DNA of 64,000 nt from Sulfurimonadaceae bacterium (GTDB lineage Bacteria > Campylobacterota > Campylobacteria > Campylobacterales > Sulfurimonadaceae), in contig JADGDM010000002.1 in the NCBI GenBank assembly GCA_016744905.1, forward strand, positions 62,001 to 126,000. Reading direction: 5' to 3'. How positions within the stretch are numbered: the stretch's first letter is position 1; the number at the start of each line of letters is the position of its first letter. The notes beneath the pieces were generated by a model. The model was not told the origin of the DNA. It worked only from the letters and a program-made list of their open reading frames with translations, and did no database searches. Below are positions 16,886 through 61,835 of the stretch, piece after piece. The translations under genes were made by a program, and so were the position numbers.

Positions 16886-18601
16886 ATGCACGTCTCAAAA
16901 CTATCTTTAACTATTTTAAGCCTACTTTTAATCTTTAGCTTTAGTGGCTGTGAAGACATCACACAATTTGGCAAAGATTCTAATACAACTGAGAACAATG
17001 AGACTCAGCCAGACTTAGCCTTGTCTATAAGTGAAGAGACTGCTCCTGAAATAGAAAGAGCAGAGAAATCTGAGGCATCGATAGAACCTACAGAGATGAC
17101 TGAAAATAGTCCTGCCCCACAAACACCAGATGAACCAGAACTTGTCATACCTCCCCAAGTAGATACGCCAAATGCACCAGAAACAGATCCAGAAATCATC
17201 ATCCCAAATACACCAACACCTACTCCATCAGAGACACAGACACCTGAAGTCACTGAACCAGAACCAGAAGTAGAAGTACTTCCAGAACCTGAGCTTGTAA
17301 CACCTACCCCTAGTCAAGCAGTTATTGAACTGTGTGAAGCCATTGAGATTACAGCCCAATCACTCAATGTAAGAATCAATCCAAATACATCTGATGACAA
17401 AGTAGCCACCGTGGAAAATGGTGAGCAATATGTTGTTGTAGGTCGTGATGGAAACTGGGTTAATATTTGGTTTGATGAAGAGACACGATGGGTTTATGGG
17501 TCAGGTTATACTGAAGATATGAACCTCTCTTGTGGAAAAGTAATCAACACAAATTCGCTGAATGTACGAACCGGAAACAGTACTGCTTTTGATATTGCAG
17601 GAAGTATGAAAGGGGACTCTCTTTGGGTATATGCAACACAAAGTGATGATATCTGGAAAAATATCTGGTACAAAAGTGAATCTCTATGGGTACATGGAAA
17701 CTATCTAGAACAACAGTACAGTGATGCACCTTCAAATTCTGACGCAATAGCCATCATCGTTGAGAGTTTTACAATTAACAGTGATGACCTTATAACAGAT
17801 ACTAATTTTGTCACACTCACTATGCGTGTGAACAGCAGTGTCGTCTCTTATCAAGTGAGTGAAGAGCGTACTTTAAGTGGTGCGCAGTGGTTAGACTACA
17901 GTGAGAGCGCTGACTTTACACTCTCTTCAGGAGATGGGGTAAAACAGCTCTATCTACGTGTTAAAGATGCCAATGGTCGTCTCTCAGAGATTGTTAGCAA
18001 CAGTATCGAACTTAAAGTTCCTGTGGTAATTAGTGATGGACGTAGTATCGATCGTGATCTTTTTTACGCAGGATATAGAAGTAGTTATGGAGGTCTTAAT
18101 GGCCAACAGGTAACTGGTCTAAATTACCTTCTTGATAACTTTGAAGAGGATAAAGAAGCAGCTTATACAAACTTGAGTGTTTGGTCTCGTCAGATAGCCT
18201 ATCTTTTAGCAACCACCAAACATGAGGTAGCCAATACTTACACTCCTATTACAGAGTATGGAAGCAAATACTGTGCGCGCTACGATGGTGGATGTACCTA
18301 TAAAGGGCGTGGCTATGTTCAACTCACACATAAGTATAACTATAGTGCAATGAGTGCCATTACCGGTGCCAACTTGGTTGATTATCCAACCCGTGCACTG
18401 GAGCCGGACATTGCTTATACGGTTATGTCTTATGGATCATTTCATGGTATTTTTACCAGTAGAAAATTGGGTGACTACATCAAGTCAGGTTCAACTGACT
18501 ATTATAATGCACGACGCGTTATCAATGGAACAGACAAGGCAACACTGATAAAAGGTTATGCACAAACATTCCAATCAATTTTAGATAACTCTGCAAAATG
18601 A
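16886..18601 (+). CDS. Lipoprotein with bacterial SH3 repeats and GH19-type (chitinase/lysozyme-like) domain
   Basis: 571 residues. The signal peptide ends in a lipobox, FSFSGC (Cys at 22), followed by a Pro/Glu/Thr-rich linker to about residue 145, two SH3b-like repeats (ITAQSLNVRINPNTSD... and INTNSLNVRTGNSTAFD..., each with a W(V)YGSGY / WVHGNYL end), a beta-domain, and a C-terminal GH19-like lysozyme fold. The last shows a catalytic-type Glu in TTKHEVANTY, YKGRGYVQLTHKYNY, and ARRVINGTD. Similar domains occur in chitinases and phage or cell-wall endolysins. It probably cleaves peptidoglycan or chitin outside the cytoplasm. It overlaps the next gene by ATGA. Confidence 0.83.
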   Translation: MHVSKLSLTILSLLLIFSFSGCEDITQFGKDSNTTENNETQPDLALSISEETAPEIERAEKSEASIEPTEMTENSPAPQTPDEPELVIPPQVDTPNAPETDPEIIIPNTPTPTPSETQTPEVTEPEPEVEVLPEPELVTPTPSQAVIELCEAIEITAQSLNVRINPNTSDDKVATVENGEQYVVVGRDGNWVNIWFDEETRWVYGSGYTEDMNLSCGKVINTNSLNVRTGNSTAFDIAGSMKGDSLWVYATQSDDIWKNIWYKSESLWVHGNYLEQQYSDAPSNSDAIAIIVESFTINSDDLITDTNFVTLTMRVNSSVVSYQVSEERTLSGAQWLDYSESADFTLSSGDGVKQLYLRVKDANGRLSEIVSNSIELKVPVVISDGRSIDRDLFYAGYRSSYGGLNGQQVTGLNYLLDNFEEDKEAAYTNLSVWSRQIAYLLATTKHEVANTYTPITEYGSKYCARYDGGCTYKGRGYVQLTHKYNYSAMSAITGANLVDYPTRALEPDIAYTVMSYGSFHGIFTSRKLGDYIKSGSTDYYNARRVINGTDKATLIKGYAQTFQSILDNSAK

Positions 18602-29083: not shown

Positions 29084-30859
29084 TTAATTAAACTCTATTT
29101 TCTCTACTTCTGTACTCTGCTCTAGCTCCAACTCTTCATGTACATTTTCAACCGGTTTCACATGCGCATCACGTCCATAGATAAAACTTTGTTCTAAAAC
29201 GATGACACGGTACGCCTTATTGAGTGCTCTAGCGCGCTCGGCTGAGGGGATGATAAGGCTTGAGACATCACTATGTAGCGCGCTGAGTCTCTCCTCTTTC
29301 ACAAAACCTTGCGCATCAAAGAAGTTATGCATCACCTCTTCATTGCTTCTAAACTCATCGCCTGCACCATTTTCTTCTAAGTAGAGACTGTACTCATAAC
29401 GTCCATCTTTCGTTCGAGGTTCAGGGATGTTTTTAAAACCACTCTTTACCTGTGTCCAGTGATACCACCCTTTTGCCGTGCTACTATTTTCAAACTTTCT
29501 AGGAAAGACAAAGGTCGAATCAACAATCCCACCAATACCACTATGACAGCCGATGCAGTAGAGCGTCTCTTCATAGTTTTGTGGACGTAGCGCGCCGCTC
29601 TCATCTTCGATAAATCCTTGATAGACCCAACCCAGTCCTGTTTGAAGACCACTTTCAGCGTCACCTTTGATATTTCGAAGTCTATCAGGGAAGTCATCAC
29701 GCTCTTTAATCTCAGCAAGTGATGCATTATGTAGCTGTCCATAACTGTTCCATGATACTTTTTTGGCATATCTAAGCTCTTTCATGCGCGCTGACATCTG
29801 AACACTGTTGTTCTCATCAACATCAAGATAACGCACCGAGTGTAAAAACTCTGTTCCTTTGGGATAAAGCCCTGGCGCAATAAGATAGCTATTGTCTTCA
29901 AGCGCCTCTTTTGCTGCGCCCACATAAGACATAGAGAAGTTCTCTAACTTTTTATCCACAGCACTATAATCTGGTGTCTGCCAGTTAAAAACTATCTCAG
30001 TTGCCCTATCTAAGAGACCATTTTGATTAAGATCTACTCCATAAAGTGTCTCATCAGTCTCAGAAATAGAGATATTTTTCTCTTTGATTAAGCTCTCAAC
30101 GATACTGAGATTTAATTTATATACCTCAATATCAAAATCGCCTTGAGCATTTTGTGAAAAGATAGGTTCTAATCTTATAAGCACATCATCCGCGCTGCCA
30201 TTGATTGGCCAAAAAGTTCCTAAAAATGGATAGTACGCAAAGGCCCGCCATAAGGTATACTCCCCATTGGGCTTTTTATCAAAACCTTGCGCATCAAAAT
30301 CAAAATAACAATCAGGCAAGTACCCATTCCATTTTTCATCTTCATTCACATCCCACTTTTGTGGTACGTTTTCCAGTCTCTGCCTTAGTAGTAAGATTCC
30401 ATTTTTATCTTTATAGTTGTTCTCTTTGATATAGCTTGCTATTTGTGTATCATCCAGCGCGCCAACCTCAGCGGTTCTATCTTTAAAAAGGTTGCTAAAG
30501 CGGTTAATCTTTGTGTAGTCACTAAAGTCATAACTCTCTTGCAGGTCTGCATCATCGATATAATTTGGCTCTTTAGAGTTGATATGACAGCTAAAGCAGG
30601 GGTTATGAGAGATGTTGTTTTCATCTACAGTTTTGGTATAACACTGAGAGGTGACATAGGCTGCTCTGTTATTCACCGCAACACTTTTTTTAAAGTCGAT
30701 GTCTACCAGCACAGAGATGTTGTGTTCTCTTGGCGCGCTGGGTACAATTGATTTGCTTGTATTTGTCTCTTGAATAGGGACAGCATCAACACTGTTATTT
30801 TGACTTTCACATCCAAATAAAAATATTGACAGGCTTAAACTTAGTAATTTTAATTTCAT
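29084..30859 (-). CDS. Dihaem cytochrome c-type lipoprotein
   Basis: 591 residues with lipobox IFLFGC (Cys at about 17) and a short Asn/Thr/Ser linker. Two haem-binding motifs are visible: CFSCHINSKEPNY near residue 90 and CIGCHSGIGGIVD near residue 440. The rest is alpha/beta with many aromatic residues and Asp/Asn loops (VDLNQNGLLDRATEI looks like a calcium-binding loop). It lies between the phytase-like and PhoX-like genes in the same orientation, so the three may act together. I do not recognise a named family. It carries several D/E-X-N-X-S/T sequons. Confidence 0.7.
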   Translation of the reverse strand: MKLKLLSLSLSIFLFGCESQNNSVDAVPIQETNTSKSIVPSAPREHNISVLVDIDFKKSVAVNNRAAYVTSQCYTKTVDENNISHNPCFSCHINSKEPNYIDDADLQESYDFSDYTKINRFSNLFKDRTAEVGALDDTQIASYIKENNYKDKNGILLLRQRLENVPQKWDVNEDEKWNGYLPDCYFDFDAQGFDKKPNGEYTLWRAFAYYPFLGTFWPINGSADDVLIRLEPIFSQNAQGDFDIEVYKLNLSIVESLIKEKNISISETDETLYGVDLNQNGLLDRATEIVFNWQTPDYSAVDKKLENFSMSYVGAAKEALEDNSYLIAPGLYPKGTEFLHSVRYLDVDENNSVQMSARMKELRYAKKVSWNSYGQLHNASLAEIKERDDFPDRLRNIKGDAESGLQTGLGWVYQGFIEDESGALRPQNYEETLYCIGCHSGIGGIVDSTFVFPRKFENSSTAKGWYHWTQVKSGFKNIPEPRTKDGRYEYSLYLEENGAGDEFRSNEEVMHNFFDAQGFVKEERLSALHSDVSSLIIPSAERARALNKAYRVIVLEQSFIYGRDAHVKPVENVHEELELEQSTEVEKIEFN

Positions 30860-44973: not shown

Positions 44974-47406
44974 CTACGGCAGTGGAGAGTAGTTGTCTAT
45001 GACAAAACTCTTCACTGTTATCTGCGCAAAACCATCACTTGCATTTTGACTTAAAAATGCAAAGTTAAACTTTCCTACATTACTTTTATCCAGTGTTGTG
45101 GCTTGTGTGCCTAACCAGAGAAAGTCGCTGTCTAAACTGAGTACTATGGACACGACTTCATTGTTGGTTGAAGGTAGTGCCGCTTGATTATGCTGACCAC
45201 CATGAACATCTGTTTGACGTAACTGTAATATGGCGTCTGTATTTGAGCTATACGTAATACTTACGACTGTAGAACTGCTCAGATCCACCTTTGGTGTGGC
45301 GAAAGGGTCGTTACTCCCATAAGGATTAATTGGCAGTGACATCTCAAGATACGCACCTCCATAAGGTATATTTCCTTTTAATATCGCTACTTTTTTACCC
45401 TCAACATCAACCAGTGCATCGGTTCCACTACTTGGTGTTAATACAACACCACCATCCCCTGATCCCACAGCCCAATACCGGTAATCTTCGAGCAAAGCAG
45501 TCGTTGGTGTAGTGGTATTCGTCTCTGGCGCGCTGGTATTGTTTTCAACAGGAGGGACATAACTCATATTGTTTTCCAAATTATCATACATGGCGCCCAT
45601 TAAGTCACCATTGTCTGCATCAATTTCCCATGAAAAGAGACCTGCTAAATTGTTTTCACGTACATAATCACCCTTGGCAAAAACGGTACGCACATCGTCA
45701 AATGAGATCAACTGATTACTTGTTTCATTGTAAATATACGAGGCCTGAGCACTCTCATCAAAATAATAAACAAATCCATTTTTACCCTGCAGTGTTACAG
45801 GATCAAAATAGTTTGCCACAAGATCTTTATAGTCATAAATACCCGCTTCCCACGTTCCATCCATAGCGCCACTTCCCGTAAAATAAGTCCCATCAAAAGT
45901 GACATTTTTCCAGCCCCGACCATATTTACTCACGCCGATGACCAGCTTACTGCCTTGAACACCCTGTGTCAACATAGCGTTCACACTTGCTTCAATATTA
46001 TAATCTTCTGTTGGTTCATTGAGTGTCGGATAGAGTCCACTTTGGTGCCCGATAGTCGAGTTCCATGTTCCATAATAATCATAGCTCATCATAAAGATAT
46101 AGTCCAGACTATTTTGCGCCGCATTATAATCCACCTCATCTATCTTTTGACCTATCCCAATAGCAGTAGTAAGCTCATAGCTTCGTCCCGTGACCAGACT
46201 CAACGCATCAAGTCCAGCGCGCAAGTCTGCCATCAAGGCTGTATAGTTCGCCTTGTCTGCACTTGAACCCAGTGCGCTGTTTGCTCCTCCACCGCCAGGA
46301 AATTCCCAGTCAATATCAAGCCCATCAAAAAAGTCATACTGTGTAATAAAAGCGATGGCACTATCAACAAATACCTTTCTCTGCGCGCTACTATCTGCAA
46401 GAGTGAAAAATGGATCAGAGAGTGTCCATCCCCCGATTGACGGTAAAACTTTCAAATGAGGATTGGCTTTTTTAAGCTCGATTAACTGTCCAAAATTCCC
46501 TTTTAAAGTCCCACTGCTTGGATGTGTAGGATAAGTTTTTTCTAAACTCGCAAAATCATCAACGACTATTAATTCGTAGTCGTTTTTGGAAGCACATTTG
46601 GCCGTGATAATATCTTGCACATTTTGTGTTGCGGAGGTGTTATCTCCACACATAGCGATAAATCCATAAAGAAGATGGGTTAACTTTTCTGCGGGGATGT
46701 CATTGACATGATAGTCACGACCGTAAACACTCCACTCCACAAAATAGGTTCCTCGTACATAGTTCTGCGCTATCGTAGTGGTATTGGTTTCTGGAATTGT
46801 CGTATTGTTTTCAGGTGTTGTTGTATTCGTTTCCTCTGGAACTGTGGTATTTGTCTCCTCAGGAACAGTAGTATTACTTTCTGGCGTTGTTGTGTTTGTC
46901 TCTTCTACTACCGTCGTATTGGTTTCGGGTGTGGTGCTATTTATCTCCACATTCTCTTCTACACAAACATTTCCACTGCTGCGCGCTTGGATATACTTAC
47001 TAAAAAAGTTATGCACGTTATATTCAAACTTTCCGCCACTATGATCAACACCCGTACCTTTGATGATCTTTTGCAAAATCAAAATAGAATTTCCACGCTC
47101 TAGATCAAGGTAGTCATCTAAGGCCATTTGATTAAAAGTATTGTTATTCTCTTGAAACTTTAAAGGGGTGAGTGAGCTACTATTATGGCAAGCCACACAG
47201 TTGTCTACGGTATTAAATTGTGTATACACTTCAGTCGAACAGAGATTCTCAATATTGATTACAATGTTATCCACAACAGTCTCATTTGACTCTTGCGTAG
47301 TGTTTGATTCAATGCTTGTATTTGTCTCCTCTAGCGGATCTAAAAACTCTGAACAGCCACTAAAAATTGACCCACCAATAAGCAGTGATACCAATAAATT
47401 TTTCAT
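44974..47406 (-). CDS. GH18 chitinase lipoprotein with N-terminal cytochrome c motif
   Basis: 810 residues from ATG 47406, with lipobox FSGC (Cys at about 18). Residues about 50-140 carry a haem motif NCVACHNSSS and a trailing HSGGKFEYNVHNFF. A linker of about 45 residues made of E-T-N-T-T units follows. Residues about 210-590 form a GH18 chitinase: YGRDYHVNDIPAEKLTHLLYGF, LPSIGGWTLSDPFF, and the active site DGLDIDWEFPG with catalytic Glu368, then MSYDYYGTW. A C-terminal beta-sandwich (about 640-810), probably carbohydrate-binding, follows a second sequon linker. GH18 enzymes cleave chitin by retention. A haem-c domain on such an enzyme is odd. An in-frame TTG at 47418 is an alternative start. 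Confidence 0.87.
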   Translation of the reverse strand: MKNLLVSLLIGGSIFSGCSEFLDPLEETNTSIESNTTQESNETVVDNIVINIENLCSTEVYTQFNTVDNCVACHNSSSLTPLKFQENNNTFNQMALDDYLDLERGNSILILQKIIKGTGVDHSGGKFEYNVHNFFSKYIQARSSGNVCVEENVEINSTTPETNTTVVEETNTTTPESNTTVPEETNTTVPEETNTTTPENNTTIPETNTTTIAQNYVRGTYFVEWSVYGRDYHVNDIPAEKLTHLLYGFIAMCGDNTSATQNVQDIITAKCASKNDYELIVVDDFASLEKTYPTHPSSGTLKGNFGQLIELKKANPHLKVLPSIGGWTLSDPFFTLADSSAQRKVFVDSAIAFITQYDFFDGLDIDWEFPGGGGANSALGSSADKANYTALMADLRAGLDALSLVTGRSYELTTAIGIGQKIDEVDYNAAQNSLDYIFMMSYDYYGTWNSTIGHQSGLYPTLNEPTEDYNIEASVNAMLTQGVQGSKLVIGVSKYGRGWKNVTFDGTYFTGSGAMDGTWEAGIYDYKDLVANYFDPVTLQGKNGFVYYFDESAQASYIYNETSNQLISFDDVRTVFAKGDYVRENNLAGLFSWEIDADNGDLMGAMYDNLENNMSYVPPVENNTSAPETNTTTPTTALLEDYRYWAVGSGDGGVVLTPSSGTDALVDVEGKKVAILKGNIPYGGAYLEMSLPINPYGSNDPFATPKVDLSSSTVVSITYSSNTDAILQLRQTDVHGGQHNQAALPSTNNEVVSIVLSLDSDFLWLGTQATTLDKSNVGKFNFAFLSQNASDGFAQITVKSFVIDNYSPLP
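46777..46958 (-). repeat. Tandem coding repeat of ETNTT-type units in the chitinase linker
   Basis: About seven imperfect units of 24-30 bases encoding E-T-N-T-T or close variants (ESNTT, ENNTT) separated by one to four residues such as P, VPE or VVE. Each unit matches the D/E-X-N-X-S/T acceptor motif. Synonymous differences between units argue for selected protein sequence rather than very recent slippage. Confidence 0.8.
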
Positions 47407-47407
47407 C

Positions 47408-48694
47408 TTAAACGCCAAGCAGACCGCTCAACGCGCCAGTCTTCCCAAAGTGATAACCATACTTATCAATATCCATCCCTGCAAACTGTGCCGCAGATAC
47501 CAATAATTGCTCATGAGAGGTATCTGAATACGTTAATATACGCCCACCTTGTCCACCGCCTGCAACAATAAATGGCATATCATCTCCACCATGACCATTA
47601 GAATGTGAAACATCACTTCCAAAAACAATCATCGTATTATCAAGAAGGGTTCCCTCCTCCACGGTAATAGTTTTCAGCTTATTTATCAGATCTTTCAACT
47701 GTTCAGCGTACCAATTTCTGTGTGCATTAAAATCAGCACCCCAAGCGTGAGACGCAGCGTGACCTTGAGAATTTGCACCAATCCATGGCATCGGCATCTC
47801 CGAGGTGTTGTGTGAATAGTTTAAAGTCACACTTCTCGTCTTTCCTGTTGCTAAGGCTGCTACGGCGATGTCATTGTTTAGTGAACTTACATCTGGGATA
47901 TTTGCTAAGTCTGTGACTGAACCTAATGATTGTAGCTTAGCGATGTCAACTATCGTTGTCGGGTCAATTGCCCCTTCGATATTTGACTGAGAGAGTGTTA
48001 AATTGATACGTGACTTAAGATCTGTAATCGCATCAAGGTTTTGCTCCAGTTTTGATTGCTCGATAAGACCCAGTGCTGATTTCATATCATTAAGTTCTGA
48101 CTGAACATGTTCTAAGGCTTTTAAACGTCTTTGTGTGGCTAAATCTACACTATTGGTACTGCTACTACTTGACCCTATATCTCCAAAAAGAGAGCTGTAA
48201 CTGATAGAAGGATTGTCCTCCGGTAAGATGGGTGAGCTCCAAGATGATGCGTTTTTATATGTGGTACTAAATGGAAAGTTTTGGAAGTTATGGCGCATCC
48301 CCAAAAGAAGATACGGGTGGGTAATACTTATATCTGCGGCTTGTGCAAAACTACCAATAGCCACATTGATGGAGGTAGTATCAAAGTTGGTCAGTAAGGT
48401 TTTGGTTCCTCCATCATGGTTGGTTCCACTCTCAAAAGGAGAGTTTTTAAGATCAACGCCTCTTAAAAAAGTACAATGCTGTTTAACAGATTCTAAAGAG
48501 CTGTTCTGCGCACCTAAGGTAAGGTCAGACGCCGGATGCCACTGTGAAGGGTCAATCCCATCAGGCATGTGAATAAAAATCACATTTTTAGCGGGGTTTT
48601 GCGCTGCATTTAGGATACTTGGAAAACTCAAGGCCAGAGGCAGTGCCGCTGAACCGCTTAATATATTTTGTAAAAAATTTCTTCTATTCATCAT
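47408..48694 (-). CDS. Tat-exported DUF1552-family protein
   Basis: About 428 residues. MNRRNFLQNILSGSAALPLAL is a twin-arginine signal. The mature part shows DUF1552 features: NVIFIHMPDGIDPSQWHP, FLRGVDLKNSPFESGTNHDGGTKTLLT, LNYSHNTSEMPMPWIG and TMIVFGSDVSHSNGHGGDDMPFIVAGG. This family normally pairs with DUF1592/1588/1585 cytochromes, as here with the gene upstream. Two ATGs follow a GTG; 48694 has GGAG 6 bases upstream. Its stop is two bases from the chitinase ATG, so the three genes form one operon. Confidence 0.85.
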   Translation of the reverse strand: MMNRRNFLQNILSGSAALPLALSFPSILNAAQNPAKNVIFIHMPDGIDPSQWHPASDLTLGAQNSSLESVKQHCTFLRGVDLKNSPFESGTNHDGGTKTLLTNFDTTSINVAIGSFAQAADISITHPYLLLGMRHNFQNFPFSTTYKNASSWSSPILPEDNPSISYSSLFGDIGSSSSSTNSVDLATQRRLKALEHVQSELNDMKSALGLIEQSKLEQNLDAITDLKSRINLTLSQSNIEGAIDPTTIVDIAKLQSLGSVTDLANIPDVSSLNNDIAVAALATGKTRSVTLNYSHNTSEMPMPWIGANSQGHAASHAWGADFNAHRNWYAEQLKDLINKLKTITVEEGTLLDNTMIVFGSDVSHSNGHGGDDMPFIVAGGGQGGRILTYSDTSHEQLLVSAAQFAGMDIDKYGYHFGKTGALSGLLGV

Positions 48695-48705
48695 CACAAA
48701 CTCCT

Positions 48706-51700
48706 CTAGTTTTCTCTATGCGTAAACGCATTTAGTTGTGTCATCTCTATCATCAGTGTTTTAATATTACCACCACTCTCAACAAAACGTGCCTTTAAAT
48801 TATCCAGTGAACAACTGTCCATATCCGCTTCCATATAGCCCTTAGAAAATCTAAAATATTGTGTGGCGTAACACTCTTTTGTCTGCTGTTGTGTCGCCAA
48901 TGTTTCAATCAAATCATCACGTGAACTATAAGGGATCTCCGCCCCATCAAATCTGCTTTTAATTCCCTCTAGAACACCTGCTGTTGTGATGTCCAAAAAC
49001 AGTGGACTCTGCTCAGTCCCTTTCATCTCTTTTTCACGGTAACGACCATCACCCTCATAGTTTTCAAAGGCATATCCGATATCATTAAAACTCATATGAC
49101 ACGCATAACAACGTGATGGACTGGTGTGGACATCAAAAAGTTCTCTTGTTGTAACCGTCTCATCTGGCTCAGGAGGAGAGGTATTTACAGCCTCGGTTGA
49201 CACTGGCGCAAATGGTAGGTCATGACATAAAATCTCACGTCTGATAAATGAACCACGACTCAGCGCGCCAGACTCATCAAACTGACCATGTGAAGCTAAA
49301 AATGCCCCTGTTCTTAAAAGACCCCCACGGCTGGTCGTTCCAAATTCTGTTCTTTTACTCTGTTTTTGCATCGCTGAACCACTTAAACTTGTGTCTAAAG
49401 AGTAGAAAGTTGAGAGTGTATCATTGGCAAAAAAGTACTCAGCGTCCATCATTTCTGAGAAAGTGCCACTGCCTTCATATACGGCGTACTTAACAATCTG
49501 TGCAAACTCCGCAGCAAGTGAAGACTTCACGCCTAGCGCGTTAAACTCTGCAGAAGATTTAGGGCCAATAGCGTCTTCTTCAGTATGTAACCACAGTCCA
49601 CTAAATCGTGCAATCTGATCTTTGGCCGCTGATGTCTCTACCATCCGTGTTGCTTGCGCTTTTATCTGAGCAGCCGTATGTAAACTGCCTGCATCTGCTA
49701 GGTCAAACAACTCTTGGTCTGGCATACTTCCCCAAAGAAGATAAGAGAGTGCCGAAGCCACCTCATAATCATTTAATAGCGCATAGCCAAAACCTGTATC
49801 ACTACCGACTTCTGAACGATATAAAAAGTTTGGAGAGATTAAAATAGTTGTAAAATAATCTTTTAAGCCCTCTGTGGTTGTATCTGCCGTTTTAATCATG
49901 CTGCTTAGAGTACTCAAATCAGCACCAGAAACTGCTTTTCTATAAACTTTCTTTGTAAAATCTGCCACAAAATTATCTACACAAGCATCTTCATTTGATG
50001 GCAAAGCACGTAAGGCAGGTGACGCTGAACTGCAGGTTCCTTGAAGTGTCCATGTATTTTCATACGCAGAACCAACACCCAACTCCCAAGCAGCCAAACC
50101 AGCAGCTGAATCATCTGAACACCAAGTATTATAGATACATTGATACTCTTTACCATTATAAGAGACCACATCATTGGCTGCGTACGTTGAACCAGCGACA
50201 TACGCTGGCGCGCTACAAGTAGTCGTTCCTGAACCAACATCAACGCTACTGTTGTCTTCTACTAAACCACAGCTATAAACCGTGTCTAAATGCTCATCAA
50301 CCACCAAGTCAGAAATCGCTATCGCCACATTCAAATAACTCTCCATCTTAGAAGCATTGGCAATACTGGCATCAACCGAGTTTTTATAGTTTGAAAAAAC
50401 CTTATCTGATGGCAATGCATCTGTGGCGCTTGAACTAAATCCAAAAAGATCTTTTAGCGTGTTTGTATATTCTTGTCTGTCTAATAGTCTGAGGTATTTT
50501 GGAGAAACACTACTGCTGTCATCACACAGTGTTGCATTCTCTTCTTGTTGATATGGGTTGTCAAAGTTTTCTACTGCATACGTATAGATAGCATCTGAAC
50601 ACTCTTGATCACACGCCGATGCATTATACGTTGGCATAGAGTCTGCGATATATTTGACCAAAATCTCTTTTGAACTCACTTTTGAGAAAAAGTCAGGATT
50701 TCCATCAACTCCGATACCATCTGACCCATGACAAAATGCACACTGCGCGCTGTAAAGTTTGGCACCATCAAGAACAACAGTAGTATTGGTCTCAGTCCCA
50801 GTAGAGGTGTTTGTCTCAGGAATCGTTGTTCCACCTGAACCATCAACCACAGGACGTTCAAAATTACTCTCTGCATACGCTGCAATTTTGTCCGAACACT
50901 CTTGATCACAACTTCCATGATCAAGTGGAGGCATGGTATCTCTAATTTTACTTGCCAACAGTGCAGTTGAATCAAATTCACTATCAAGTACAAAATAAGC
51001 ACCGCCAAGTCCGCCTTCACCATTGCTTCCATGACAGTGCGCACACTTTTGTCCATAATGTTCTGCTCCACTTAAACTGATAAGCGTTTCATTATTTTCG
51101 TCAGTCTCATTATTTTCAATTGATGTAGTTGTATTGGTCTCCACATCTGTATTGTTTAGAGTTACATTTGGAAAGTTTTCCAAAGCGTAATCATATATCG
51201 CTTCTGAACAGGCATCATCACAGCTACTTGCACTGTTTGGAGGCATCGTTTCACTCACATACGCAACTAAAGAACGATGTGTCGGGTAGTCACTGTCTTC
51301 TTTAAAATAATCTCCTGCAAAAGAGAGTCCCTCTGTTCCATTGGCACCATGACACGACGCACATTGTTGCGCATAAAGTTCAGCTCCATCTAAAGTACTG
51401 TTTTCCTCTGGAGTCTCAATATTCTGTGAACTGTCAAAAACACCTGCTGTGCTACAACTCTCAGGATGAGCATATATATCAACAAATTTAACAAAAAACT
51501 CTAAGATCTCAGCTTCTGCTTTTCCTCCACCATGAGGCATTAAATTATCAGCATCAATTTTAGCAAGCAATCTATCGCTGTCTGATTTGGTTCTAAAATA
51601 ACTTGATAGTGATATATAGTTAAAGCCACTATCATTGAAGCGTAAATCAAATGAAGTAAATCCATCACTCTCTTCGTTATGACAAACCACACAGTTATTG

Positions 51701-51858
51701 ATTAAGTCTGATGAGGCTAGAAAATCCTCCGCACACTGATTACTGGCACGTGTAAAAGTACCCTCTGTTGTATCCACTTTTACTTCTGGTTCAATATCTT
51801 CTGAACATGCTGTAAAAAAAAGCAGTGTAAATAGTAGAATCATAAATAAGTTTTTCAT
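48706..51858 (-). CDS. Multi-haem DUF1592/1588/1585-type lipoprotein with embedded chitin-binding domain
   Basis: 1050 residues with lipobox FFTAC (Cys at about 18). Four N-terminal c-type haem motifs: CVVCHN, CASCHG, CAHCHG and CAFCHG, the last three in repeated c-domains separated by sequon-rich linkers. From about residue 440 the DUF1587-like start (KYLRLLDRQEYTNTLKDLFGF) is interrupted by a CBM5/12-like chitin-binding segment (about 550-620: YVAGSTYAANDVVSYNGKEY, then W and Cys residues), then DUF1595/1592/1588/1585-type regions: FVADFTKKVYRKAV, GLLRTGAFLASHG, CYACHMSFNDIGYAFENYEG (a fifth C-x2-C-H) and CYATQYFRFSKGY. It probably transfers electrons during oxidation of a polymer at the surface. 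Confidence 0.85.
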   Translation of the reverse strand: MKNLFMILLFTLLFFTACSEDIEPEVKVDTTEGTFTRASNQCAEDFLASSDLINNCVVCHNEESDGFTSFDLRFNDSGFNYISLSSYFRTKSDSDRLLAKIDADNLMPHGGGKAEAEILEFFVKFVDIYAHPESCSTAGVFDSSQNIETPEENSTLDGAELYAQQCASCHGANGTEGLSFAGDYFKEDSDYPTHRSLVAYVSETMPPNSASSCDDACSEAIYDYALENFPNVTLNNTDVETNTTTSIENNETDENNETLISLSGAEHYGQKCAHCHGSNGEGGLGGAYFVLDSEFDSTALLASKIRDTMPPLDHGSCDQECSDKIAAYAESNFERPVVDGSGGTTIPETNTSTGTETNTTVVLDGAKLYSAQCAFCHGSDGIGVDGNPDFFSKVSSKEILVKYIADSMPTYNASACDQECSDAIYTYAVENFDNPYQQEENATLCDDSSSVSPKYLRLLDRQEYTNTLKDLFGFSSSATDALPSDKVFSNYKNSVDASIANASKMESYLNVAIAISDLVVDEHLDTVYSCGLVEDNSSVDVGSGTTTCSAPAYVAGSTYAANDVVSYNGKEYQCIYNTWCSDDSAAGLAAWELGVGSAYENTWTLQGTCSSASPALRALPSNEDACVDNFVADFTKKVYRKAVSGADLSTLSSMIKTADTTTEGLKDYFTTILISPNFLYRSEVGSDTGFGYALLNDYEVASALSYLLWGSMPDQELFDLADAGSLHTAAQIKAQATRMVETSAAKDQIARFSGLWLHTEEDAIGPKSSAEFNALGVKSSLAAEFAQIVKYAVYEGSGTFSEMMDAEYFFANDTLSTFYSLDTSLSGSAMQKQSKRTEFGTTSRGGLLRTGAFLASHGQFDESGALSRGSFIRREILCHDLPFAPVSTEAVNTSPPEPDETVTTRELFDVHTSPSRCYACHMSFNDIGYAFENYEGDGRYREKEMKGTEQSPLFLDITTAGVLEGIKSRFDGAEIPYSSRDDLIETLATQQQTKECYATQYFRFSKGYMEADMDSCSLDNLKARFVESGGNIKTLMIEMTQLNAFTHREN

Positions 51859-58979: not shown

Positions 58980-61835
58980 CTACTCTATAATCAAGCCACT
59001 ACTTGGAAGCGTTAGCGTTGTTTCAACATCCACTGAACCATTACTCAGATGCGTATACTTCACTTCTTGGTTTTCTAGCGCGCTGGAGTCAAAAGCACGT
59101 AGATGATAGACAGTTTGGCGCACTCCATCTACGATATGAGAAAGTGCTGATTTGAAGTTTTCATCCAGTTCATAGACCAGTTCCAGCGCACTGGAGTTAG
59201 CAAAGAGTTCTGTCGTACTAAATTTCCAGGCACCCGCTTCTTTTAGCTCTACGCGTGTATTGATCATATTGGTTTTAAAATTGATATGACTATCTTGCAG
59301 TTGACTATCAATTTCCAAGCCCGTACTCACTTCTGTTTCAATACTCAGCGCGCTGGATTTAAGCACTCCATTTTCAAGTGCATAATCACACTCATTGTAA
59401 AAAATCTGCGCCTCACTGATAATAATATTTTGATCTATACACGTGGGGGAGGTATTGTCTGGAATTGTAGTATTGCCATCAGGGCTTGTTGTATTTGTCT
59501 CTGTAATGACCTCAGCCAATACATTAATACCAATCGTTTTATTAATATTTCCACCTTGATTATCACTAAAAAGTAAAATAAAACTATCCAGCCCTACATA
59601 ATTATCTGTAGGACTGTACGTGATGGCACTATCTACAAGCGTGACACTTCCATGTTTTGGACTTGAAGAGATAGAGAGACTTACACTGTCATTGTCATCA
59701 TCTTGTGCGCTGTATGTAAAAATCTTAGGGGTGTTAAATGGAGTTTCAAATGATTCAAGGATACTGATAAGGGGCACGTCGTTGACACTGTTGACAGTGA
59801 CCATGATTGTTTGTATCGTCACACTTCCCGAACTATCCGTAGTACTCACTTTAAAACTGTCATTTCCATTATAGTTTTCACTGGGTGTATAGACAACACT
59901 ATTGCCAACGATAGTGACACTTCCATTGGTATTGCTTACGTCCAATTCCAGTATCAAGTCACCATCATTGTCTTCAATATCACTCAAAGTAAAACTAAGT
60001 GATGCATTGTTGTCCTCGTTTGTATTTAAACTACTCACAATATCCAAACTCGGATCATCATTAATGCCCACCACTGTAATATTCACCTCAGCGCTATCGC
60101 TATCAAGATTTGAATCTGTCACGCTGATAATAAAACTGTCTGTTCCAAAATAATTCACATCAGGCACATAAGTAATATGCGTACTGTTCACACTTAAAGA
60201 TCCATGTGTAGTGTTTTGATCAAAATCAAGACTGAGTGCTTCTAGGGAGTTGATATCATAAACGATAGAGAGGTTGGTATCTTCATCGGTACTCTGAGTA
60301 GAAGTGATGGTGATGATTGGCGCGCTGAGTTCAGTAGTGATAATATCCATAACGTACTCTGTTACAGTATCTCCAAATGCGGCACTATTTTCATCACTGC
60401 TGTCTGAGAAGATAATGGTGTAAAATCCACTACTAAGGTCCAGTGAAAAGTTATCACTGTAGGTACCAATGTAGTGATTATTTTGATCATAAAGATTTAA
60501 GAAGTAGGCCCAGTTTGAGTATTTTGGATTACTTCCATTAAACTGCGTAATACCACTAAGTCGGACACTATAACTGTCCCGATCATCATTATCAATCAAA
60601 GATCCCTCTATATGATAGTCCGTCTGAATATCGCCTGATTCTAAAGGTTCGCTCACTGTTGTATTGTTGGCAATGGCCAGTTTTGAACGACGTATTGTTT
60701 TTGAACAGTCTGCGGAGTTGGGGTCACCTTCGGCCAGACCAATAGGCAGACCACTTCCCACATCGCTCAAATCAGGATTTGAAAAAAAAGCGATACCCGG
60801 CGTTTCATAACTCATCACCGTCGCAAAAGTACCAGCAATATCATAACCATGTGAATAGGTATAAAGCCCTGCTCCCCCTTCTGCTCTATTATGTGCACAG
60901 CCAAAGTTATGTCCTACTTCATGTGCAAAGGTGAGATCAACACAGTAGGCACCTCCCACAGAACCAACTTCAATAACACTATATAGAGAGTTAATATCTA
61001 CACGACTGTCTATACTCGCAGGTACATAAGCCAGTCCACAAGGTTGACCCGATGCACTATAAACACGAAACAGTGTCACTAAGTTTGCTTCATAAAGACT
61101 ACGCTTAACCTGCATCGAAAGCGAAGCATCTGAGAGTTGAGAGAGTGCTGTCCCAATGGTGTAACTCTCACTGGTTAAGGCAGTATCTAAAAGTTCTGTA
61201 TGCACATTTACTAATGTCACCTTTGTCAAAGAACTGTTCAACGCATCATTGGCATCATCAAACATTCCTTGGATAAAAGCATCCACTCCTGCCCCATATG
61301 TTGTCTCAAAATTTTTAGTATAGCGGACTAAGATATTGATGTTCACATCTGCATTTTCGTCTATAGATGCAGAGGCTGCTTGGACTGCGCTTGAACGTAA
61401 TAGTGACGAAGAAGTAGGAAGAAGAATTCCATCATCGCCTCTGTTAAGTGCTTTTAATTGAGAAAACTTTGTTAGATAATAATCACCCTCTAAATACTCG
61501 ATACTATAACGGAAACTCTGGTGTGTAAAAGAGATATAAAAAACACCACTTTTGTACGTAGCGCGCAGACGCTCATAAGGATTTGCAGCATTCACACCCA
61601 TCCAAGTATAGTCTTCATTTTGAACACGTGTTATCATCTTTTTATAAACAAACGTGGCCATATTTATCTCATCAAGATGGATATCAATAGAGGATTTATC
61701 TAAGGAAGAATGGAGTAAAACCTTGGTATTCAACACATAAGTAGAAACAGTATTTTTTTTTACTAACTTTGTAAAACCTTGACTCCCAAAAAGAGTAGTG
61801 CTCAGTAAAAATAAAATTACGATTAGATATTTCAT
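58980..61835 (-). CDS. Secreted zinc metalloprotease (reprolysin/M12-like) with cadherin-like repeats
   Basis: 951 residues with a signal peptide (FLLSTTLFGSQG). The zincin domain (about 150-400) has the extended site HEVGHNFGCAH (His305, Glu306, His309, His315) and a Met-turn in ATVMSYETPG. A pre-peptidase-type beta-domain follows (TDYHIEGSLIDNDDRDSYSV), then three cadherin/Ig-like repeats of about 90-95 residues marked by NYFGTDSFIISVTD, NYNGNDSFKVSTTD and NYVGLDSFILLFSD, and a sequon-containing linker before a C-terminal beta-domain. It likely degrades extracellular proteins. The small lipoprotein gene is directly upstream (5-base gap). Confidence 0.88.
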   Translation of the reverse strand: MKYLIVILFLLSTTLFGSQGFTKLVKKNTVSTYVLNTKVLLHSSLDKSSIDIHLDEINMATFVYKKMITRVQNEDYTWMGVNAANPYERLRATYKSGVFYISFTHQSFRYSIEYLEGDYYLTKFSQLKALNRGDDGILLPTSSSLLRSSAVQAASASIDENADVNINILVRYTKNFETTYGAGVDAFIQGMFDDANDALNSSLTKVTLVNVHTELLDTALTSESYTIGTALSQLSDASLSMQVKRSLYEANLVTLFRVYSASGQPCGLAYVPASIDSRVDINSLYSVIEVGSVGGAYCVDLTFAHEVGHNFGCAHNRAEGGAGLYTYSHGYDIAGTFATVMSYETPGIAFFSNPDLSDVGSGLPIGLAEGDPNSADCSKTIRRSKLAIANNTTVSEPLESGDIQTDYHIEGSLIDNDDRDSYSVRLSGITQFNGSNPKYSNWAYFLNLYDQNNHYIGTYSDNFSLDLSSGFYTIIFSDSSDENSAAFGDTVTEYVMDIITTELSAPIITITSTQSTDEDTNLSIVYDINSLEALSLDFDQNTTHGSLSVNSTHITYVPDVNYFGTDSFIISVTDSNLDSDSAEVNITVVGINDDPSLDIVSSLNTNEDNNASLSFTLSDIEDNDGDLILELDVSNTNGSVTIVGNSVVYTPSENYNGNDSFKVSTTDSSGSVTIQTIMVTVNSVNDVPLISILESFETPFNTPKIFTYSAQDDDNDSVSLSISSSPKHGSVTLVDSAITYSPTDNYVGLDSFILLFSDNQGGNINKTIGINVLAEVITETNTTSPDGNTTIPDNTSPTCIDQNIIISEAQIFYNECDYALENGVLKSSALSIETEVSTGLEIDSQLQDSHINFKTNMINTRVELKEAGAWKFSTTELFANSSALELVYELDENFKSALSHIVDGVRQTVYHLRAFDSSALENQEVKYTHLSNGSVDVETTLTLPSSGLIIE

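Follow-up and report, generated by a model that had tools for sequence, protein, structure and literature searches.

Two predicted lipoproteins of a Sulfurimonadaceae bacterium, a GH18 chitinase and a DUF1592-type multi-haem protein, have linkers densely set with D/E-X-N-X-S/T, the extended sequon of the oligosaccharyltransferase PglB. Both are encoded in the window, a stretch of 64,000 nucleotides (assembly GCA_016744905.1, contig JADGDM010000002.1, positions 62,001 to 126,000) from a genome of 3.01 Mb in 122 contigs, here called G000. We put at about three in four the probability that these linkers are acceptor tracts for the organism's own PglB, with glycans that extend or protect them much as in cellulases. 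After export, PglB at the periplasmic face would attach glycans at many of the spaced Asn. The bristle so formed would stiffen and lengthen the linkers and shield them against proteases, and the stiffened linkers would keep the catalytic and haem domains distant from the membrane anchor. The mode of action would be that of the O-glycosylated linkers of cellulases, with N-glycans instead. An earlier note on this DNA had proposed dense N-glycosylation, a surface location and a cellulase-like role, and the analysis partly supports that reading; glycan occupancy, cell-surface location and linker role are what we infer from the sequence.

Extended sequons lie in the linkers of two lipoproteins

Both proteins combine an export signal (lipobox Cys22 in the chitinase, Cys18 in the DUF1592-type protein) with D/E-X-N-X-S/T motifs in which X is not Pro. 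The earlier note had counted at least 13 in the chitinase and at least 8 in the cytochrome, mostly in linkers. We counted 15, at Asn 33, 39, 45, 92, 160, 167, 175, 182, 190, 198, 205, 212, 617, 627 and 634, of which 14 fall within the stalk or linkers (boundaries from Pfam and a fold model), and 8 in the DUF1592-type protein, at Asn 153, 242, 250, 256, 350, 358, 441 and 536, every one in a linker. The chitinase is laid out as follows.

44974..47418, minus strand: GH18 chitinase lipoprotein with an N-terminal CxxCH domain, 814 aa, 15 extended sequons (Pfam, fold model, sequon count)
47284..47352, minus strand: N-terminal stalk, residues 23-45, after lipobox Cys22; 3 sequons, with 3/3 Asn in sequons
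46978..47283, minus strand: helical haem-like domain, residues 46-147, CxxCH at residue 74; 1 sequon (Asn92)
46762..46977, minus strand: main linker, residues 148-219, 8 sequons (coil in the model, pLDDT < 50 to residue 217)
45613..46746, minus strand: GH18 catalytic domain, residues 225-602, zero extended sequons (Pfam, fold match)
45499..45582, minus strand: second linker, residues 613-640, 3 sequons (fold model)

Along the 72 residues of the main linker the sequons are spaced 7-8 residues apart and take up 8 of its 12 Asn; the GH18 domain holds 5 plain N-X-S/T. The AlphaFold model was built on a six-sequence alignment and is of low confidence overall (mean pLDDT 57.9). It gives pLDDT < 50 for residues 1-217 and 624-677, helices within 46-147, a GH18 domain at about 221-616 and a C-terminal domain rich in strands, and its best fold matches are to Serratia chitinase A. 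The CxxCH motif (window 47185-47199, minus strand, inside the helical N-terminal domain at 46978-47283) suggests that this domain binds haem, and to our knowledge the fusion of a haem domain to a chitinase is unusual. The domain resembles the N-terminus of the adjoining DUF1592 protein (about 33% over 170 residues).

In the DUF1592-type protein, Pfam recognises three cytochrome domains, DUF1587, DUF1595, DUF1592, DUF1588 and DUF1585, and a CBM5/12 match. Its linkers, with boundaries from Pfam, are these.

48706..51858, minus strand: DUF1587/1592/1595/1588/1585 multi-haem lipoprotein, 1050 aa, 5 CxxCH, CBM5/12 match, 8 extended sequons (Pfam, sequon count)
51394..51453, minus strand: linker ahead of cytochrome domain 1, residues 136-155, sequon EENST
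51073..51186, minus strand: linker joining cytochrome domains 1 and 2, residues 225-262, 3 sequons
50776..50853, minus strand: linker joining cytochrome domains 2 and 3, residues 336-361, 2 sequons
50491..50568, minus strand: linker past cytochrome domain 3, residues 431-456, sequon EENAT
50206..50298, minus strand: segment ahead of the CBM5/12 match, residues 521-551, sequon EDNSS

Composition and duplication as a source of the motif

Both proteins were shuffled within blocks of 20-50 residues, which preserves local composition. The chitinase then gave a mean of 1.75-1.96 sites and a maximum of 8 in 5000 trials, against 15 observed, and the DUF1592-type protein a mean of 1.61-1.89 against 8 observed (p <= 0.0006); such p-values are too small because tandem units, possibly duplicated, are not independent. 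The independent test of enrichment is that of the 27 other lipoproteins, given below.

These results bear on an improbable alternative, which takes the linkers for ordinary spacers of low complexity (E/T/N/S/P) whose motif arose from composition and tandem duplication, with little or no glycosylation. Tandem Repeats Finder does pick up short, degenerate repeat arrays in the main chitinase linker, with periods of 21 and 24 (78-81% matches, about 2.5 copies each). All 23 sequons of the two proteins are E-type, with T at +2 in 18, unlike those of other lipoproteins, and the N/T-rich linker of the closest chitinase orthologue mostly does without the acid at -2. Block shuffles, however, fail to reproduce the counts, and each of the six chitinase ETNTT units has a 15-base DNA spelling of its own. 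The enrichment extends moreover to the other lipoproteins, whose sites vary and are for the most part not identical, and similarly composed decoys show none. Since six units have six spellings, selection likely acts on the ETNTT peptide, which is kept while the DNA differs.

Lipoproteins of the genome are enriched in acidic sequons

We sampled 649,892 bases of G000 (the window and further stretches), holding 550 open reading frames (ORFs) of at least 100 aa, and assigned localisation by crude rules devised for the analysis. The 29 lipoproteins contain 90 sites (5.48 per 1000 aa) against 22.2 expected by shuffling, and 95 signal-peptide-like proteins contain 37 against 22.1. For the 306 cytoplasmic proteins the figures are 72 (0.79 per 1000 aa) and 75.2, a contrast lowered by two 'cytoplasmic' ORFs that begin like exported ones (L033:6492-8420, 7 sites; L155:3900-5174, 4 sites). 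The comparison of exported with cytoplasmic proteins that the earlier note had called for therefore came out unequal, at 5.5 against 0.79 per 1000 aa. Without the chitinase and the DUF1592-type protein, the remaining 27 lipoproteins have 67 sites, or 4.6 per 1000 aa, a ratio to the cytoplasmic density of 5.9 (bootstrap 3.7-9.0); outside the window the two densities are 4.7 and 0.8. Decoy motifs, with K/R, Q/N or S/T/A/G at -2, with Q or D replacing the Asn, with A/V/G at +2, with D/E at -3, or with the motif reversed, reached 0.51 to 1.44 times expectation in the lipoproteins and so were not enriched.

An acid stands at -2 of N-X-S/T in 90 of 218 cases in lipoproteins (41%) and in 72 of 558 in cytoplasmic proteins (13%; background 14%); without the two window proteins the lipoprotein figure is 67/178 (38%). 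A putative minus-two rule for this genome reads out from sequence alone.

Many sites in the other lipoproteins are scattered singles. They would suit an explanation that shares the acceptor claim and that we regard as unlikely, though a serious contender: that the sites are glycosylated for the sake of stability in general or of quality control, as in Campylobacter jejuni, with no stalk function, and that linkers gather them merely since PglB requires flexible, exposed segments. N-glycosylation in C. jejuni is tied to proteome stability in the accessible part of one study (PMC6478998). Eight sites at 7-8-residue spacing in a 72-residue linker exceed the need of one stabilising glycan, which speaks against this explanation as an argument rather than a test.

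The genome encodes a PglB-type transferase beside pgl homologues

The earlier note had also suggested a check for a PglB homologue. The genome has one STT3 match, on contig C53 (99.9 bits, curated cut-off 24.5), with pgl homologues adjoining, so that neither of the two outcomes which the note had named as refuting its reading was seen. The protein (704 aa) aligns to C. lari PglB (5ogl) over residues 12-703 (E 2.1e-164), has identical residues at C. lari D56, R147, D154, E319 and R331, and contains WWDYG. We take D56, D154, E319 and WWDYG to be the catalytic acids and motif, and R331 to contact the acidic -2 residue. The R331 equivalent is Arg in all 12 distinct family sequences recovered, that of G000 included (L004 yielded no PglB ORF in this survey). 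We call the protein PglB-type, not equivalog, because it scores 652.6 bits against the C. jejuni-type PglB equivalog NF050801 (NCBIfam), under the cut-off of 1300.

Overlapping genes follow on the 3' side of pglB, in this order: a PglA-like glycosyltransferase, then homologues of PglC (8g1n, E 7.5e-82), PglD (PglD-like, 3bss, E 3.8e-30), PglE (4ztc, E 2.4e-119) and PglF (5bju, E 2.2e-120). Because pglF, E, D and C homologues adjoin pglB, the first sugar of the glycan is probably diacetylbacillosamine. No PglK ABC flippase was recognised on the 17.9-kb pglB contig, the remaining genome not having been searched for PglK, and the pathway may use another flippase than C. jejuni does. A Wzx-like flippase is encoded upstream of pglB (L002:1223-2548).

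The genome also encodes two proteins of the Wzy_C family, which includes O-antigen ligases and PglL-type O-transferases. Together with the Thr-rich linkers they would fit O-glycosylation of Thr/Ser-rich linkers by a different transferase, the Asn motif being incidental. We consider this very improbable: it predicts neither an acid at -2 of the Asn nor an association with PglB presence, and Wzy_C matches are commonplace, occurring in 9 of 14 control genomes.

Tandem sequons are commoner in genomes with PglB

Of 298 genomes surveyed in the phylum, 211 have a PF02516 match. We searched the 298 for a paired-site DNA pattern, two E-X-N-X-T units 0-30 bases apart, with the reversed pattern as control; group totals exclude G000, and G245, whose match (E 5.2e-4) fell under the cut-off, was taken as lacking PglB. 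Pairs number 588 (control 217) in 209 genomes with PglB and 74 (control 135) in 88 without, and G000 ranks 4 of 298. Five outlier genomes (G363, G380, G413, G316 and G289) were set aside in separate totals. The difference between pattern and control separates the two groups with a Mann-Whitney p of 2.8e-10, ignoring ancestry. Decoy pairs of Q-X-N-X-T number 132 in the 209 genomes. The 88 have 142, or 70 in the 81 that remain without seven microsatellite genomes.

Exported proteins of G009, which has PglB, are enriched 3.25 times, in a sample for which the stretches around the chitinase, a second chitinase match (contig C2) and pglB were also deliberately picked. Among genomes without PglB the values are 1.35 in G118, 0.75 in G225 and 1.15 in G207; the last two, both complete, were added because the lipoprotein control in G118 is weak (4 proteins, 702 aa). 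In G363, which has PglB, lipoproteins are enriched 4.2 times, signal-peptide-like proteins 4.9 times and proteins called cytoplasmic 2.0 times, all values biased upward by most stretches having been picked at or near sequon matches. This genome has 61 tandem pairs (control 3) and G380 has 32 (control 2), with two STT3 matches per genome. Sequon-rich ORFs of G363 carry 31 sequons in 1192 aa and 12 in 701 aa, and a 2473-aa protein carries 36; sequon-rich lipoprotein or signal-peptide ORFs elsewhere carry 14 in 378 aa (G004), 13 in 925 (G018) and 8 in 457 (G084). G363 and G380 represent a related genus of extreme sequon density (G363 loci L121-L127).

Evidence that weighs against acceptor tracts

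Several observations count against PglB-dependent acceptor linkers. The PglB-linked direction persists inside families, but weakly: pattern and control stand at 25:26 in 22 genomes with PglB and 45:120 in 67 without in family f2 (p 0.06), and at 13:6 in 3 and 15:11 in 17 in family f7 (p 0.16). Because the difference within families is weak, the 298-genome test is inflated by shared ancestry. Enrichment is only 1.15 times in 23 exported proteins of G088, which has PglB, and reaches 4.72 times in G120, where none was detected and where 39 of 45 sites fall in three neighbouring ORFs (L055:3762-13113, with 27, 9 and 3 extended sequons). G289 and G084, likewise with no PglB detected, have 12 and 2 sequon pairs. 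In these three genomes no PglB was found at E <= 1, in assemblies of 80 to 130 contigs in which a gap is possible.

The closest chitinase orthologue belongs to G009 (L064:7419-9926; 63% identity in one comparison, 441 identical of 793 aligned residues in another), and only 4 of its 21 N-X-S/T are extended sequons. Its long linker consists of DNTNTT/DNSNST repeats, with D at -3 and the acid mostly missing at -2, and the PglB of this genome retains the R331 position. Either this linker receives glycans at sites where N occupies -2, or composition came first and sequons second. The accessible part of one study reports that an enzyme of the C. lari PglB kind modifies one such site, NNNST, at a low level, and that R331 is retained in oligosaccharyltransferases of relaxed specificity too (PMC4894442); R331 as proof of the minus-two rule was dropped for that reason. 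Within G000, other lipoproteins favour D at -2 (45 D, 22 E), and the sites of both window proteins are all E-type.

At its N-terminus the G009 orthologue carries another cytochrome-like domain, which matches the cytochrome domain 1 region of the DUF1592 protein (40%). A contig scan of named genomes found six loci with chitinase relatives of 31-38% identity, five in Roseateles/Methylibium/Pelomonas and one in Thalassomonas; the four ORFs read have 0 extended sequons each (those of L176 and L179 were not recovered). The family search for the DUF1592-type protein gave partial relatives only, hence its linkers are not comparable. One candidate, G009 L064:12640-15735, was ruled out as an orthologue (196 identical of 907, gap-rich).

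Relation to known glycosylation systems

The tandem linker acceptors are a variant of the known PglB system, not a new system. As in C. jejuni and C. lari, there is a single-subunit PglB, the D/E-X-N-X-S/T motif, exported acceptors, and adjoining pglF-E-D-C homologues with a PglA-like glycosyltransferase. Unlike C. jejuni, where CmeA, CmeB and CmeC have two sequons each in the part of the source available (PMC6478998), up to 8 candidate sites occur per linker here; the absence of a recognised PglK beside pglB, the upstream Wzx-like flippase and the PglB score under the equivalog cut-off are further differences. PglB outside Campylobacter also has precedents in Helicobacter pullorum, whose motif is (D/E)XNXS/T, and in deep-sea-vent systems, Nitratiruptor tergarcus and Sulfurovum lithotrophicum being named as owners (PMC6025236, available in part). 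The accessible part of that paper gives six glycosylation sites across five proteins for H. pullorum and does not describe linker tracts.

Like those of cellulases, the linkers are flexible, join a glycoside hydrolase to other domains and have sites along their length, with glycans here predicted. Cellulase linker O-glycans are proposed to extend the linker and protect it from proteases, and the same source, available in part, calls putative N-sites 'quite rare' there (PMC3490864), in contrast to the N-sequons that take the place of O-sites here. Literature searches in a library that lacks most subscription papers turned up, by title and abstract, no recognisable account of linkers dense in sequons from the phylum.

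More broadly, we suggest, tentatively and at a little under even odds, that PglB has shaped mucin-like N-glycan tracts, tandem acidic sequons that build the stalks and linkers of surface lipoproteins, in PglB-bearing members of the phylum. Such tracts, if real, would be the N-linked equivalent, in bacteria, of linkers with O-glycans, with up to 36 sites per protein in the genus of G363 and G380, and a genome by itself could show the -2 preference of a transferase that has yet to be characterised; sequon statistics might thus serve as a predictor of transferase specificity. The linkers are candidate natural acceptors with up to 8 PglB sites per short linker, denser than the model acceptors compared, and could provide natural multi-site tags for glycoconjugate work. 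Tandem sequons tied to PglB presence would form a genome-level signature, and they make a role of bacterial general N-glycosylation in linker extension and protease resistance testable.

Gene neighbourhood and other sequon-bearing proteins of the window

The DUF1592-type protein (5 CxxCH, chitin-binding CBM5/12 match), a DUF1552 protein and the GH18 chitinase are encoded head to tail on the minus strand (window 44974-51858). The intervening DUF1552 ORF (47408-48697) has 0 extended sequons. The arrangement looks like a redox-linked chitin-degradation operon; Cellvibrio Cbp2D is an example of cytochromes tied to polysaccharide-degrading enzymes (PMC8981238, available in part).

The earlier note had placed the same units in the linkers of three further proteins, which was borne out for some of their sites. 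The lipoprotein at 16886 has 2 of 3 sites in an N-terminal stalk and that at 29084 has 2 of 5, the other one and three lying elsewhere. The metalloprotease at 58980 has 2 of its 7 sites, ETNTT and DGNTT, in a clear linker and 5 outside it. The stalks and the linker that hold these sites are the following.

16976..17005, plus strand: N-terminal stalk of a lipoprotein with DSNTT and ENNET (sequon count)
30713..30769, minus strand: N-terminal stalk of a lipoprotein with ETNTS and EHNIS (sequon count)
59466..59501, minus strand: linker of a reprolysin-like metalloprotease with ETNTT and DGNTT (sequon count, Pfam)

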